A stretch of DNA of 46,298 nucleotides, from positions 1 through 46,298 of IMG/VR virus record IMGVR_UViG_3300020613_000006. One strand, 5' to 3'. Numbering within the stretch: position 1 is the first letter of the stretch; each line of letters starts with the position of its first letter. The translations under genes were made by a program, and so were the position numbers. The stretch comes from a virus. The notes under the pieces are model-generated. The model made no database searches and was not told the DNA's origin. It saw only the letters and a list, made by a program, of their open reading frames with translations. This document shows, in pieces, positions 31,806 through 46,298 of the stretch.

Positions 31806-31831
31806 GTCCCGGCGCAAGTCGGGATTTTTTT
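31806..31831 (+). terminator. Terminator after the PWDERIH gene
   Basis: TCCCG (31807-31811) pairs with CGGGA (31820-31824) around an 8-nt loop, followed by seven T residues. Confidence 0.8.
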
Positions 31832-31840
31832 AATTTAATG

Positions 31841-31869
31841 TTGACGAGTCCGTCAATGGGGAGTATAGT
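31841..31869 (+). promoter_or_regulatory. Operator-promoter 12
   Basis: The perfect palindrome TTGACGAGTCCGTCAA is at 31841-31856, with a 17-bp spacer and TATAGT at 31864-31869. It drives the unit with the DUF2800 gene. Confidence 0.82.
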
Positions 31870-41119: not shown

Positions 41120-42949
41120 TTATGCAAAAATAAACCCAGGCGCGCCGAATGTATTAAATTCCACATTGGAATCTGATGCATTTGGTGTTCCAGCTACTGA
41201 AGAGTTAGTGGTTGTTGAACCCCCAGCCCTTAATATGCCACCAGAATAAACCGCCAAATCCTTTCCGGTATTGTTCTTCACTGTCGCAGATTGAGCATTG
41301 ACTTCACCACCGGCGGCCCGTACTCCATTGGTCGATGCACCACTAATAGTGGAATTATTTACACACACTCTTCCACCAACGTCTGCATGCGCCCCGATCC
41401 TCCCTCCGGTAATTGTCGAAAAGTTGGCATTAATAATGCCTCCGCGACGAGCATAAACAATATCGGCATTAACTGAAGACTTTGAAAGCACGGAATTATC
41501 AGCGTAAACATCGCCACCAGTTGCCTGTATTGTATTTGCTGCCTGCCCAGACACATTCACACCCCTAGCGTGGATTGTTCCACCAGATTCAGCGAGCAAG
41601 CCAGTAGTTCCACCTGTCACTACGGCCCCATCAAGGTTAATTCTCCCTCCCTGGTAAGCCTTGACTACATTAACCGAGGCAGAAGAAGAGGAAATCACGT
41701 TACCAGATCCCGCTATATTTATCTCCCCCTCGTTATAAGCATTCAGCGCCGTGCCGTTAGCTAAAACAGACGTCCCTACCGCACTGACCTTCCCGCCGTC
41801 GCGGGCAGTAATTCCAAACCCAGAGGCTGGAGAGATTGTCATTCCCTCAGCAATAATAACACCGCCATTAGAGGCGTGAATTGCATTTATTCTCGAGCCT
41901 GAAATGTCTGTTATCGTCCCACCGCGAGGCCTGGTATAAATTACACCTGCAAATTCAGCAGAAAGTGCAGTATCAGCATTAATCGCCTCCCCTTCCAGGA
42001 AGGTAATACGACTGTTGTTTGCATATACGGCGTTATGTGCGGCGTTATTTACCGTCGCCAAAGATAGGTGGCACAACGAGTTTCGCACAATGTGGGTTGC
42101 AAAATCCCCGGTTGCATTATCGAAATTTCCTCCCGCAGCATTACACACAGATGAGTTTGACACCCAAAGGTTTCGGTAGTTTCCTGAAAAATTTGAGGAG
42201 GGGATATGCCCTCTTGACGATTCGACAATTACTATCCCGCAAGGATACGATGTGACTGCTCTATTTTTAGCGTTGATAACCCCTTTGCCTGGTCTTACCT
42301 CTATATCAGAATTTCTACGTACATAAAGGCCATTCCCTACCGTAGAACCTGCCACATCTACGAGAATGTCCCATATTGGGCCAAACGAATTCACCACATG
42401 CAGTAAGTTGACGCCGGTGAATGTCGGAGAAGCAGTAACCACCGAATCAACAGATTGAATTGTGATCCATGAACAGTCACGTTTCTCAACAAGTGTCTCA
42501 CCAGTGAACTTAAAGCCTGATTCAAGCATGACCGTCAGTTGTACGCTGGGTTTTAATCTGGAGCACGTATTTATTACAGCCTGTAAGCTAGGTGCATCAG
42601 TTGGGATGCGAATTGTGTTGGATGCTGTCAACACCAGAGCGGCACCAGTGATGGTCGCTCGGCTAAATGCCTCTGCTATGGTGGAATAGTCCTTGTCATA
42701 TACGACACTCCTTTCCAATTCCTGCCTCAGTACATCAACAGCACCTTCTGCACTCGCCGCAGCAGTCTCAGCCCGTTGCTGAGACTGTAAAGCCTGCTGG
42801 GCGCTCTGTGACGCACTCTGCGCCTGTGTTTGTGCTGCAGTGGCAGAAGAGGCGGCAGCAGCAGCATAACTGTCAACCTGCTCGAAATTGCTGTCTAACT
42901 CATCCCATGTTAAGGGACGCCCGAGGTCGGCACGTTTTATAAATGTCAT
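41120..42949 (-). CDS. Tailspike with right-handed beta-helix
   Basis: This 609-residue protein has an N-terminal attachment helix and Ala/Gln/Ser-rich coiled coil (AAAAASSATAAQTQAQSASQ). A long array of short repeats with Gly-Gly-x-Ile-x-Ala turns follows from about residue 290 (for example GGTIHARGVNVSG), as in pectate-lyase-like beta-helices. It probably binds or degrades surface polysaccharide. It overlaps baseplate J by 4 nt. Low-complexity Ser/Asn sequence near the C-terminus suggests variation. Confidence 0.8.
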   Translation of the reverse strand: MTFIKRADLGRPLTWDELDSNFEQVDSYAAAAASSATAAQTQAQSASQSAQQALQSQQRAETAAASAEGAVDVLRQELERSVVYDKDYSTIAEAFSRATITGAALVLTASNTIRIPTDAPSLQAVINTCSRLKPSVQLTVMLESGFKFTGETLVEKRDCSWITIQSVDSVVTASPTFTGVNLLHVVNSFGPIWDILVDVAGSTVGNGLYVRRNSDIEVRPGKGVINAKNRAVTSYPCGIVIVESSRGHIPSSNFSGNYRNLWVSNSSVCNAAGGNFDNATGDFATHIVRNSLCHLSLATVNNAAHNAVYANNSRITFLEGEAINADTALSAEFAGVIYTRPRGGTITDISGSRINAIHASNGGVIIAEGMTISPASGFGITARDGGKVSAVGTSVLANGTALNAYNEGEINIAGSGNVISSSSASVNVVKAYQGGRINLDGAVVTGGTTGLLAESGGTIHARGVNVSGQAANTIQATGGDVYADNSVLSKSSVNADIVYARRGGIINANFSTITGGRIGAHADVGGRVCVNNSTISGASTNGVRAAGGEVNAQSATVKNNTGKDLAVYSGGILRAGGSTTTNSSVAGTPNASDSNVEFNTFGAPGFIFA

Positions 42950-44157
42950 ACAATGTTCACCGTTATGTTAGATGTGGTCCAGCGGGACAATTCGTTGAAA
43001 TCTATTGTGACATTTGTTGTGCCACTATTCAATGTCATGCTGTCAACATAGCTGTTACCGTATGAACCGATAACCTTGTTAATCGGGGTGTACATGGAAC
43101 TGTAAGGCACAGTTTCACCTATATCAAACCCGTCAGGCTTGAATCCGTACTCTGTGGGAATGAGGTCACCTGCTGCGTATTCGAGAATCGCTTCCTGAAT
43201 GAGTGGTTGCAACGTCGCCTGTGATGGTAATGTACCGTCGTCCTTAATATTCACAACAACGACCATATCCACATAAACAGGTCGGCTGAATTTAATCTCT
43301 TTCGTGTTCGTCGGATAGGTGGGGGAAGTAACCACTACTGACACAGGTGTCCCGGCCTGATACAACATTGCACCGGGATTTTTCTTCACATAGATAGCCA
43401 TTGCCACATCGGCGTCAGTACCACCATCAATAATGGGAGCAATGCTGTGCGCTGGTAAACCATTAATATCCGTGGCGTTGGTGTCATTCTCGTAAATTTT
43501 CACACGGCGCGTGCCGCTAACCGCAAACAGTTCGCCCAGCATTGAATCAATCTGGTTGTTACCCGGACGACCCACAGCCGTAGCACGTTTGACACGTAGT
43601 GAACTGTCAGACTCAACGTTTGTACCGGGAGTGGCGGGTGTAGGGTTTGTGACACTGGTCAAACCCGGTACAGTGGTGATAATGCGCGTGATTGTGTTCG
43701 CGTCAGCTTCAACCGGTCCGGTTGTGGTGGATGTGATGTCCACTGTGGCGATACCGGACGAGTCAAGCGTCCATGTCTGGTCAAGCGTCCAGCGTGAGCC
43801 TGTTACAGTCGACTCAAACATCGTACCAGCGGGGACGACCGTTGAGTTAGGAACACCACTCAGGACAAAGCCCGTCACTGTGGACGCAGTACCTTCACTT
43901 CTGGTAGTGCCGGTCAGGGACGCAATGACATCGAGGTCAACGCCGGTTGCCTTGTTCGGGTCTTTGGAGTTGTACGCCTGCTGTAGCGTCTCATCCAGTG
44001 CACCAAATACCTCAGCATCATGTGCAATTTTGAGACCGTCTGGAGTGGATGGGTCGAGATTCCACAGGGGGTCGATGTCAAGATACAGTTGCTTCTCTTC
44101 ATCGAACCATTCGTTTTGCGTTTTAAGTTTGTAACCGGTGGTTGTAACTTCAGCCAT
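42946..44157 (-). CDS. Baseplate J-like protein
   Basis: This 403-residue protein begins MAEVTTTGYKLKTQNEWFDE and has the Baseplate_J core: ATGVDLDVIASLTGTTRSEG, then SDSSLRVKRATAVGRPG and NQIDSMLGELFAV, with VKIYENDTNATDINGLPAHS. It forms the wedge that links hub and fibres. The start overlaps the gp25-like gene. Confidence 0.92.
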   Translation of the reverse strand: MAEVTTTGYKLKTQNEWFDEEKQLYLDIDPLWNLDPSTPDGLKIAHDAEVFGALDETLQQAYNSKDPNKATGVDLDVIASLTGTTRSEGTASTVTGFVLSGVPNSTVVPAGTMFESTVTGSRWTLDQTWTLDSSGIATVDITSTTTGPVEADANTITRIITTVPGLTSVTNPTPATPGTNVESDSSLRVKRATAVGRPGNNQIDSMLGELFAVSGTRRVKIYENDTNATDINGLPAHSIAPIIDGGTDADVAMAIYVKKNPGAMLYQAGTPVSVVVTSPTYPTNTKEIKFSRPVYVDMVVVVNIKDDGTLPSQATLQPLIQEAILEYAAGDLIPTEYGFKPDGFDIGETVPYSSMYTPINKVIGSYGNSYVDSMTLNSGTTNVTIDFNELSRWTTSNITVNIV

Positions 44158-44497
44158 TTTCAGTCACCGTAATTAGCCCGTAAGTAGTCAGTGCGCCAGC
44201 AGTGACCGAATATGTGCGAGTGTTCAAATCAAAATTTGTACTAAAGCTGGTAAGGCGTACAACGCCGGGTGTCCTCACGATGCGGTTGCGCAATGCTGCT
44301 TCACGTGCGGAGAGTGTTGTGCCTTTACCTAAAATTTGCTCAAACCACGGTGTACCATCCGTAATGTCACGGAAGTATTCGCCGAGGAAGAGACGCAAAC
44401 GTGTTTTAATCGTCTGCTCAATCTCTTCACGTCCGGTCAGAAACATCGACCCTTGTGTGACAATATCACCATTTTCATCAATTTTACGTACTGTCAA
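44150..44497 (-). CDS. gp25-like baseplate wedge protein
   Basis: This 115-residue protein has the gp25/gpW-type pattern: IEQTIKTRLRLFLGEYFRDI, then TPWFEQILGKG and RNRIVRTPGVVRLTSF. It seeds the baseplate-sheath junction. The start is TTG at 44497, in a 4-nt overlap with the spike gene stop (TTGA). No in-frame ATG is available before the conserved part. Confidence 0.8.
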   Translation of the reverse strand: MTVRKIDENGDIVTQGSMFLTGREEIEQTIKTRLRLFLGEYFRDITDGTPWFEQILGKGTTLSAREAALRNRIVRTPGVVRLTSFSTNFDLNTRTYSVTAGALTTYGLITVTENG

Positions 44498-45219
44498 TTT
44501 ACAGGTCCCCCGGAATTTCCACCACCGGTCTGTACACCAGTGTGACGGTGTGTTTCGGCAGCAACGCCGTTAGCGAGTGTTAAGCCACCACCACCCGGTA
44601 ACGTAATCTGCCCGGTCGGTGTAATTATAACCCCGTTAATGTCCACATTGCCATTAGCGAGCAGGTTATTGTGACCACTGGTATTATTGGTCATCACTGA
44701 CCCATCTGCACCGTATGTTGTGGTGGCGTTTGTATTTTTGACAACCAGTGCACCATCGTTCTTAATCCACACGTGACGGTTGCCGGATTTGTCGCGGATT
44801 CTCACACCATTGTTACTGAATGCAGGGATAACATTACCCAGAGAGCGAATACCCGGTACGAAATGTGCGTCCTGTGGATGGTGAAAACGTGCAACAGGGT
44901 TGTCAGCAATACCACCCGTCTGTTTCCATCCGTCAATGCAGCGCTGGCTGAAATAGATTGAACCTTCACAACCGGGGTCAATCTGAAACTCCAGTACGTA
45001 ATCATCACCGGGAAAGCTCACGGGTACATCCACAATGGGCGGCGGGTCGAACGTTGTCCCGTCAAGCTGCACACGCTGAATACCAATCTGCACCTGTGCG
45101 CGTTGTGTGGCGGGATTAAACGCAATGACGTAACCGGGGACACACGTGTAGATGTCTTTTACAGCACCCAGCATTGCTGCGTCAATGACGAGTTGCAGGG
45201 GCGCTTTTCGTTTATCCAT
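44494..45219 (-). CDS. Membrane-piercing spike (gp138/gpV-like)
   Basis: This 241-residue protein has an N-terminal OB-like domain as in phi92 gp138 (DIYTCVPGYVIAFNPATQRA). The C-terminus is a beta-prism ending in AAETHRHTGVQTGGGNSGGP. The HRH motif is the usual iron-binding tip of spike proteins. It punctures the outer membrane. SD AGGAGG precedes the ATG. Its transcript probably starts at the operator region near 45253. Confidence 0.88.
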   Translation of the reverse strand: MDKRKAPLQLVIDAAMLGAVKDIYTCVPGYVIAFNPATQRAQVQIGIQRVQLDGTTFDPPPIVDVPVSFPGDDYVLEFQIDPGCEGSIYFSQRCIDGWKQTGGIADNPVARFHHPQDAHFVPGIRSLGNVIPAFSNNGVRIRDKSGNRHVWIKNDGALVVKNTNATTTYGADGSVMTNNTSGHNNLLANGNVDINGVIITPTGQITLPGGGGLTLANGVAAETHRHTGVQTGGGNSGGPVN

Positions 45220-45252: not shown

Positions 45253-45281
45253 TTGACAGTCACGTCAAACAATGCAATATT
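45253..45281. promoter_or_regulatory. Operator-promoter 14, divergent (ncRNA and baseplate genes)
   Basis: On the plus strand TTGACA (45253-45258) and AATATT (45276-45281) are spaced by 17 bp, a near-consensus promoter for the non-coding region. The -35 is half of the palindrome TTGACAGTCACGTCAA (45253-45268). On the minus strand TTGTTT and TATACT, also 17 bp apart, overlap the same palindrome and point to the spike gene. Confidence 0.72.
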
Positions 45282-45493
45282 TAAATCGCAGGTATATAGC
45301 ACATGTGCCTTTAGCGGTCCGGGGTGGTCCTTTTTCTTACCAACAGCGGGTAGCCGGAATGTGTAGCCGGGTATGAACAACAGCGACTGGTCATCGTGGC
45401 GGTCCGACCACACAACAGGTAAGAGCATTTGCAGAGTTCGATTCTCTGCCGGGCGTTTCGACGTGCGATATGAGTTTTAAGTGCTCTTTCCGT

Positions 45494-45620
45494 TGTGGTG
45501 AAGCTCAATGGCGAGCTAGGGAATAGGTTCACGGTGAAAAGCTAGCTAAGTATCCGTGAGTCGCGCGTAACCCAATCGGCAGCGCACCGATGGAAGCATG
45601 TTCGATTCATGCCATCACAA
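45494..45620 (+). ncRNA. tRNA-like cloverleaf with 57-nt insertion
   Basis: The 7-bp acceptor-like stem is 45494-45500/45613-45619 (one G-T pair). A D-arm-like GCTC-AATGGC-GAGC lies at 45503-45516, an anticodon-like arm ATCGG/CCGAT with a 7-nt loop CAGCGCA at 45575-45591, a 4-nt variable loop, and a T-arm GCATG-TTCGATT-CATGC at 45596-45612. All junction lengths fit a tRNA except for 57 extra nt (45518-45574) before the anticodon stem. U33 is missing, position 8 is A, and no CCA is encoded, so an ordinary tRNA is unlikely. Confidence 0.55.
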
Positions 45621-45765
45621 CCCCATACCAACCGGGCAGGGGGTGATTCTCCGTCTCCCAGCGGCAGGGTAAGCCGAAGTCGTTAACGTAACGTTGTGAA
45701 ACGTGACAATAGCGGCGAAATGAATTAATCCACCATCGCCTTGTATCTCTCGCTCTGCACTTTTA

Positions 45766-45791
45766 CCCGCCCTCCGTGGCGGGATTTTTTT
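45766..45791 (+). terminator. Terminator of the ncRNA
   Basis: CCCGCC (45766-45771) pairs with GGCGGG (45778-45783) around a 6-nt loop, followed by A and seven T residues. It is a strong intrinsic terminator in the plus direction. Confidence 0.9.
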
Positions 45792-45859: not shown

Positions 45860-46298
45860 ATGGGCGGAAGAAAATTAACACCGAAAATCATACAACAACG
45901 TCTTAATGATGATGGGCGTGATATTACGTTAGTTGAGTATGGTGGTGGGGTTAGGGAAAAATCAACCTTCCGATGTAGTGAAGGTCATGAGTGGGATGCG
46001 GCAGCCCATAGTGTACTACAAGGCTGCGGGTGTCCTCATTGTGCCGGAAACATCCCTTTAACACCAGAAGTCATACGACAACGTCTGAACGATGATGAGC
46101 GCGGTATTACATTAGTGGAGTATGGTGGTAGAACTCATAAGAAGTCAACATTCCAATGTAGTGAAGGTCATGAGTGGAGTGCGGAGACCAGCAGTGTATT
46201 ACAAGGCTGCGGGTGTCCTCATTGTGCGGGACAAGTACCGTTAACACCAGAAATCATACAACAACGTCTCGATGATGATAAGCGCGGTATTACATTAG
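45860..46298 (+). CDS. Zinc-ribbon repeat protein (runs off right edge)
   Basis: At least 146 residues are visible (MGGRKLTPKIIQQRLNDDGR). They form two complete and one partial 61-residue repeats: LTPxIIxQRLxDD, ITLVEYGG, then CSEGHEW and CGCPHCAG, a treble-clef or zinc-ribbon pattern as in DUF4379-like proteins. Such arrays often precede a Vsr-like nuclease, so it may be a third homing-type endonuclease, but the C-terminus is outside the window. The repeats are very similar at DNA level, suggesting recent duplication. Confidence 0.7.
   Translation, partial: MGGRKLTPKIIQQRLNDDGRDITLVEYGGGVREKSTFRCSEGHEWDAAAHSVLQGCGCPHCAGNIPLTPEVIRQRLNDDERGITLVEYGGRTHKKSTFQCSEGHEWSAETSSVLQGCGCPHCAGQVPLTPEIIQQRLDDDKRGITL

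Follow-up and report, generated by a model that had tools for sequence, protein, structure and literature searches.

The described systems closest to the RNA of this study are the prophage sRNA STnc100 (RF02076) and the large phage RNAs GOLLD and ROOL. The Rfam consensus of STnc100 is a cloverleaf with the closing stem UGGUG/CACCA, a D-arm-like hairpin, an insert and a T-arm-like hairpin that abuts the stem. In EHEC EDL933, one STnc100 copy has been verified by Northern blot (PMC5331693); at the STnc100_4 coordinates given in that paper, no STnc100 was present in the genome record that we examined. Of 5426 E. coli genomes, 1498 contain STnc100-like DNA. A relative of STnc100, PasD, has other seeds and targets, and PasA is cleaved out of a longer transcript (PMC13192938). 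For GOLLD (loop L21a), as for the OLE RNA (loop L9.3), PMC12286853 argues from the covariation of palindromic loops that the RNAs form homo-oligomers.

We analysed positions 1 to 46,298 of the IMG/VR record IMGVR_UViG_3300020613_000006 (the window, 46,298 nucleotides), which comes from a Jedunavirus-like myophage and holds a stand-alone noncoding RNA gene. The original prediction had described this gene as a structured RNA of about 500 nt in the baseplate region, possibly of a new family. The following features were assigned.

42946 to 44157, minus strand: Baseplate_J gene; the baseplate genes of the window are on this strand
44494 to 45219, minus strand: gpV-like spike gene (PF18352, Apex motif), immediately left of the RNA
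45253 to 45281, plus strand: promoter TTGACA-17-AATATT with extended -10 TG, 10 of 12 matches, conserved in relatives
45290 to 45411, plus strand: module A, a conserved RNA domain (alignment A3), made of a hairpin (45290 to 45310), a variable-loop helix and a hairpin with the loop TGGUC (45388 to 45392)
45388 to 45392 with 45406 to 45410, plus strand: pseudoknot of module A, TGGUC with GACCA (A3)
45411 to 45497, plus strand: module B, a long hairpin with the arms 45411 to 45429 and 45479 to 45497 around a variable slot (alignment A1)
45430 to 45478, plus strand: slot of B, a variable cartridge; identity among relatives is at the shuffled level
45431 to 45449, plus strand: T-arm-like hairpin GCAGA-GTTCGATTC-TCTGC in the B slot, from the sequence
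45492 to 45621, plus strand: module C, a tRNA-like cartridge (alignment A4)
45492 to 45500 with 45613 to 45621, plus strand: acceptor-like stem of C, 9 bp (A4)
45503 to 45516, plus strand: D-arm of C (A4)
45528 to 45560, plus strand: insert hairpin of C with the palindromic apical loop GCUAGC (45541 to 45546), a predicted symmetric kissing loop (from the alignment)
45575 to 45591, plus strand: anticodon-like arm of C with a 7-nt loop (A4)
45596 to 45612, plus strand: T-arm of C (A4)
45626 to 45717, plus strand: module D, GGUGAUUCUCC to GUAACGUUGUGAAACGUGACAAUAGCGGCG, conserved in Jedunavirus-like loci
45766 to 45791, plus strand: intrinsic terminator CCCGCC..GGCGGG-A-T7, from the sequence; relatives alike

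The promoter and the strong terminator that had been proposed to bracket the RNA were both found. The promoter keeps its position in the relatives from Jedunavirus and also in the loci L004 and L293, which are more divergent and retain the TTGACA; the region upstream of the RNA was 96-100% identical among Jedunaviruses. Promoter sites of this kind were not enriched (10 found, 8.4 expected from shuffles). At the equivalent 3' place, the Jedunavirus relatives have a GC hairpin followed by a T run. Elsewhere in the window, positions 31820-31856 match the terminator region of the RNA at 81%.

A coding reading of the roughly 500 nt was rejected, since the longest stop-free stretch on the plus strand is 49 codons; this agrees with the predicted absence of a coding frame, and a conserved frame was looked for across the homologs and not found. 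ORFs annotated over the RNA in some relatives were not conserved among the homologs. In public records, an RNase III site (epsilon15) or short hypothetical proteins are annotated in place of the RNA (L375 2403-2502, L385, L010, L379 and L378), the proteins probably being spurious. The RNA gene is placed between the gpV-like spike gene and an ORF starting at 45860. This ORF (45860-46297) contains repeated DUF4379 treble-clef motifs and is possibly a homing-type endonuclease; in the relatives from Jedunavirus, its place is taken by a tail-fibre or another gene. The free energy of the full 504 nt was unremarkable against shuffles (z = -0.79), and the case for the RNA therefore rests on comparison.

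The RNA was searched against Rfam 15, as the original prediction had proposed. At the gathering score no family matched, and at E<=10 only chance-level matches were obtained. The models of GOLLD, ROOL, tmRNA and tRNA were all unmatched, the first two at any listed threshold, in keeping with the earlier inability to place the RNA in either. ARAGORN called neither a tRNA nor a tmRNA in the window. A tRNA was rejected on ARAGORN and the Rfam tRNA model (RF00005), and a tmRNA on the negative ARAGORN and Rfam results and on a short frame in the C insert that is not conserved. The identity of the window C with STnc100 was also rejected, its model being unmatched even at E<=10. P22E was considered as an expressed relative and discarded because the published P22E sequence is unlike B. 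The frame of A and B has no Rfam entry; an earlier description, for example in a subscription journal, is possible.

Homologs, whose collection had been suggested, were found by BLASTN in hundreds of phage records. They numbered 196 with a cut-off of E<=0.01 and 394 with E<=10. Related DNA was also present in 68-72 plasmids, many of them P1-like by size and gene content, and, for the whole query, in 253 E. coli genomes. Module A alone was found in 46 phage records; in complete E. coli genomes, BLAST placed it in 1265 out of 5426, often as a partial match. The family is carried by many phages of gut bacteria, with members in Jedunavirus, in lambdoid phages including lambda, in epsilon15-like phages, in P1-like plasmids and in many prophages, and module A is also present in SopranoGao. 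Matches in Oceanobacillus, Neobacillus, Shewanella, Streptomyces (a 48508-nt contig), Chromatium and others (L137-L156) look like contamination of the assemblies by lambda DNA.

The genomic contexts were unrelated. In Jedunavirus, the locus is flanked by the baseplate spike on one side and by a tail-fibre or another gene on the other, and it is transcribed opposite to both. In E. coli prophages, the RNA sits between the antiterminator Q and the holin. The lambda record (L003) shows B together with a C cartridge at about 44.8 kb, a stretch which we take from the lambda map to lie between tR' and S, the record itself being unannotated. Module A was located between portal and terminase in the epsilon15-like phages, with an RNase III site and a terminator annotated there in the record, and directly after cI in mEp390 and cdtI. 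A DnaB/tRNA context was also seen, and in the P1-like locus L007 a stretch of about 2.5 kb holds four B hairpins together with a single A and four tRNA genes. Because the contexts differ across phages, the RNA is not tied to one neighbour gene.

Alignment A3 of module A (37 sequences, headed by that of the window) lends support to three elements: a hairpin of 9 bp, a compound helix that closes a variable loop, and a pseudoknot between a hairpin loop and a downstream strand. Paired bases were found in 97% of the cells and double compensatory changes in 15 of the 29 pairs; the compensatory cells counted here and in the alignments of B and C are not independent events. The covariation was 0.361, compared with at most 0.090 in slid controls and a mean of 0.144 in shuffles, none of 500 reaching 0.361. 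The pseudoknot is UGGUC/GACCA in the Jedunavirus-like group and CACC/GGUG in the others, probably through one event, and its covariation rests mainly on one clade. The model R2 matched the window at E 1.8e-22, a value from a short calibration and with the window in the training alignment, as the window matches of R1 and R2 include training sequences. In genome-wide searches, R2 gave 3 and 1 matches in 198 and 369 genomes, with just 9-17 candidates per genome scored. According to model R1, B adjoins most of the loci that were fetched through module A alone, and the window has the pseudoknotted module A and the B hairpin in series.

Module B is one long helix in alignment A1 (37 sequences, first collected through a sequence pattern), with 10 of 19 pairs double-compensatory and 0 of 500 shuffles reaching this level. 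The long-range helix of 15 bp that had been noticed before (45411-45427 with 45482-45497) is real and slightly larger (45411-45429 with 45479-45497), and it covaries strongly. In the window it has 19 column pairs with one bulged A and one U.U mismatch. The whole helix is replaced in L062 (GUAGUGAAGAGAGCA/UGCUCUCUUCACUAC) and in L280 (CAACGGGUAGCUCACU/AGUGAGCUACUCGUUG). Both T-arm-like hairpins that had been read with the loop TTCGATT are present, one in the B slot (45431-45449) and one in module C (45596-45612). In the lambdoid prophages L075 (7921-7967, minus strand) and L101, a hammerhead-like ribozyme core lies inside the B slot; the element of L075 scored 24.7 bits, below the Rfam gathering score of 34.

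The predicted tRNA-like cloverleaf corresponds to module C, where an insert of about 50 nt separates the D-arm from the anticodon-like arm. In alignment A4 (31 sequences), 16 of 35 pairs were double-compensatory (110 cells) and the covariation was 0.323, compared with at most 0.100 in slid controls and with 0 of 500 shuffles. The centroid fold of the window C contains the acceptor, D-, anticodon- and T-arms. The helices of the original prediction thus show compensatory changes, and those in A, B and C exceed all controls.

In the apical loop of the C insert, 30 of the 31 sequences have a true 6-nt palindrome, in five versions, and all 31 are self-complementary there: ACUAGU (11), UCUAGA (8), UCGCGA (6), GCUAGC (3, the version of the window), ACCGGU (2) and UCUGGA (1), the last pairing with itself through G-U. 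Since adjacent bases cannot pair within one chain, the covariation in this loop points to pairing between two copies. A general enrichment of 6-nt palindromes was not found in the B and C slots, where they are slightly rarer than by chance. The loop palindrome is therefore not background, and dimerization is claimed for this type of C only; other members of the family need not dimerize in the same way. We conclude that the window RNA probably forms homodimers by kissing of the GCUAGC loops.

The strand GUUGUG (45492-45497) is common to the B helix and the acceptor-like stem of C. Its partners are CACAAC upstream and CACCACAAC downstream, each supported in different members. As GUUGUG pairs in either, B and C cannot be fully formed together, and this mutual exclusion might act as a switch or set the order of processing.

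The slots and cartridges behaved differently from the frame. Among five Jedunaviruses, the median identity was 99% in the promoter region and 97% in module A, but the B slots were 53% identical, which is the value of shuffled slots (0.53 vs 0.53). Module D was present in L004, L010, L293, L382, L383, L385 and L366. The loci make up a natural series of A only (L387), A-B-D without C (L384 and L366) and A-B-D with differing C cartridges in the stem GGTTTAGAGTT..AACTGTAAACC (L383, L385, L386, L389 and L010). The C cartridges of L383, L386 and L389 have counterparts in loci of other phages, with local-match scores at 0.88-0.93 of the perfect value. The B slot of Geezett is 95% identical to one in L089, a P1-like element beside a DnaB-like helicase gene, and the C sequence of lambda was found inside the B slot of the Salmonella phage ST1UNAM. 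Over all loci, 96 B-slot clusters and 87 C clusters occur in 117 combinations; two or more C partners are found for 21 of the B clusters, and two or more B partners for 17 of the C clusters. The C site is taken by a genuine tRNA-Arg(UCU) in L013 and, in the P1-like plasmid locus L007, by an RNA that scores 47.3 bits with the STnc100 model, above the gathering score of 47. At this site, phage VLCpiM12a (L388) carries an unrelated insert, about 75 nt long and closed by AAAAGCA/TGCTTTT.

Judged from the aligned relatives, this is almost certainly a structured modular RNA, and it is built as a constant frame (A and the arms of B) with exchangeable cartridges (the apical slot of B and the whole of C). 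The finding is real and larger than first reported: the exchangeable modules, the wide spread in temperate phages and the conserved palindromic loop that predicts dimers had been missed.

Taken as a whole, we favour with some reserve the reading that the locus is a stand-alone gene for a trans-acting phage RNA that has a fixed frame with exchangeable cartridges and forms dimers. Transcription would start from the promoter at 45253-45281. Cartridges would be swapped by recombination at the conserved closing stems, which presumably provide the homology, so that a cartridge is replaced without breaking the fold. The insert hairpins of C would pair copies through GCUAGC to a dimer or a larger assembly, a step that the loop covariation supports well. 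More speculatively, the RNA might be abundant during infection, the frame might give stability and assembly, and the cartridges might act on factors of the host or of rival phages, as regulatory RNAs of the STnc100 type or as tRNA-like decoys; a fast exchange would suit an arms race. As to function, a trans-acting, self-associating RNA scaffold with regulatory or decoy cartridges is our tentative proposal. It also seems plausible, short of likely, that phages have a general RNA cartridge system, in which domains (tRNA-like domains, sRNAs, real tRNAs and possibly ribozymes) are plugged into the conserved helical sockets of a self-assembling scaffold and traded between virulent and temperate phages. 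This trade would resemble that of integron gene cassettes at the level of RNA domains.

Another reading takes the RNA as the precursor of small base-pairing RNAs, where RNase III cuts B, tRNA-processing enzymes cut C and the sRNA seeds lie in the variable slots. The STnc100-like C cartridge, with the same cloverleaf in the Rfam consensus, is in line with this, as are the RNase III site of the epsilon15 record, the different targets of the STnc100-related PasD and the cleavage of PasA from a longer transcript (PMC13192938). The slots, however, are mostly structured rather than single-stranded, and module A and the dimer loop would be superfluous in a precursor, which makes this reading unlikely. 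Rated somewhat lower is a counter-defence decoy, in which tRNA-like cartridges serve as bait for tRNA-attacking or RNA-binding factors of the host (nucleases or antitoxin-like sensors), and the swaps match the defences of the host. T-arms recur in the B slots and in C, tRNA genes are close by, the cartridges are hypervariable, and phage RNA mimicry against ToxIN has reportedly been found. Yet many cartridges are not tRNA-like, and the reading comes without a named defence system or target. A leader acting in cis, such as an antitermination or processing element of the downstream operon, would fit the lambdoid position between Q and holin, where the late operon begins, as well as the place directly after cI in cdtI and mEp390. 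It is improbable, as the RNA is ended by its own terminator in the window, in Jedunavirus and in epsilon15, and the neighbouring phage genes are on the opposite strand in Jedunavirus and epsilon15. That the locus is a functionless remnant of recombination sites and of tRNA genes that have decayed, as its tRNA-like pieces and mosaicism might suggest, is contradicted by the compensatory changes of modules A, B and C, which greatly exceed the slid and shuffled controls, and by the promoter and terminator kept in relatives, and we regard it as highly improbable.

The trans-acting, cartridge-bearing RNA that we favour matters beyond the window. Its B-C part is present in phage lambda and module A in about a quarter of the complete E. 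coli genomes, with a frame that is absent from Rfam. Loci with the same frame and different cartridges are natural experiments on the roles of phage RNAs during infection, and the long-open question of the purpose of large phage RNAs becomes testable in lambda and in Klebsiella phages.

Compared with a tRNA, the window C has an acceptor-like stem, a D-arm, a 7-nt anticodon-like loop, a 4-nt variable loop and a T-arm with a TTCRAYY-type loop, but it differs in the 9-bp acceptor, the insert of about 50 nt after the D-arm and an A where U33 is expected. The isrK/C4 and P22 sncRNAs are likewise noncoding RNAs of lambdoid phages, but their sequence differs, and isrK/C4 lies apart from the family locus in L040 and L377. 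The window C follows the cloverleaf plan of STnc100, with a closing stem, a 5' hairpin and a 3' hairpin that abuts the stem. STnc100 proper, however, stands alone in the two prophage loci of E. coli that were checked, with no match to B, whereas the window C is part of A-D; the known biology of STnc100 may therefore not carry over to the window RNA. Prophage sRNAs such as STnc100 are in this way placed within a wider, exchangeable architecture. Like GOLLD and ROOL, the window RNA is large, phage-encoded and of a kind often near tRNAs, but it is shorter than both and matches neither Rfam model, and cartridge exchange is not described for them in the accessible part of PMC12286853. In that part, the covariation of a palindromic loop supports homo-oligomers of GOLLD, and the window RNA, predicted to form at least a dimer, adds a further case of a phage RNA with a covarying palindrome.
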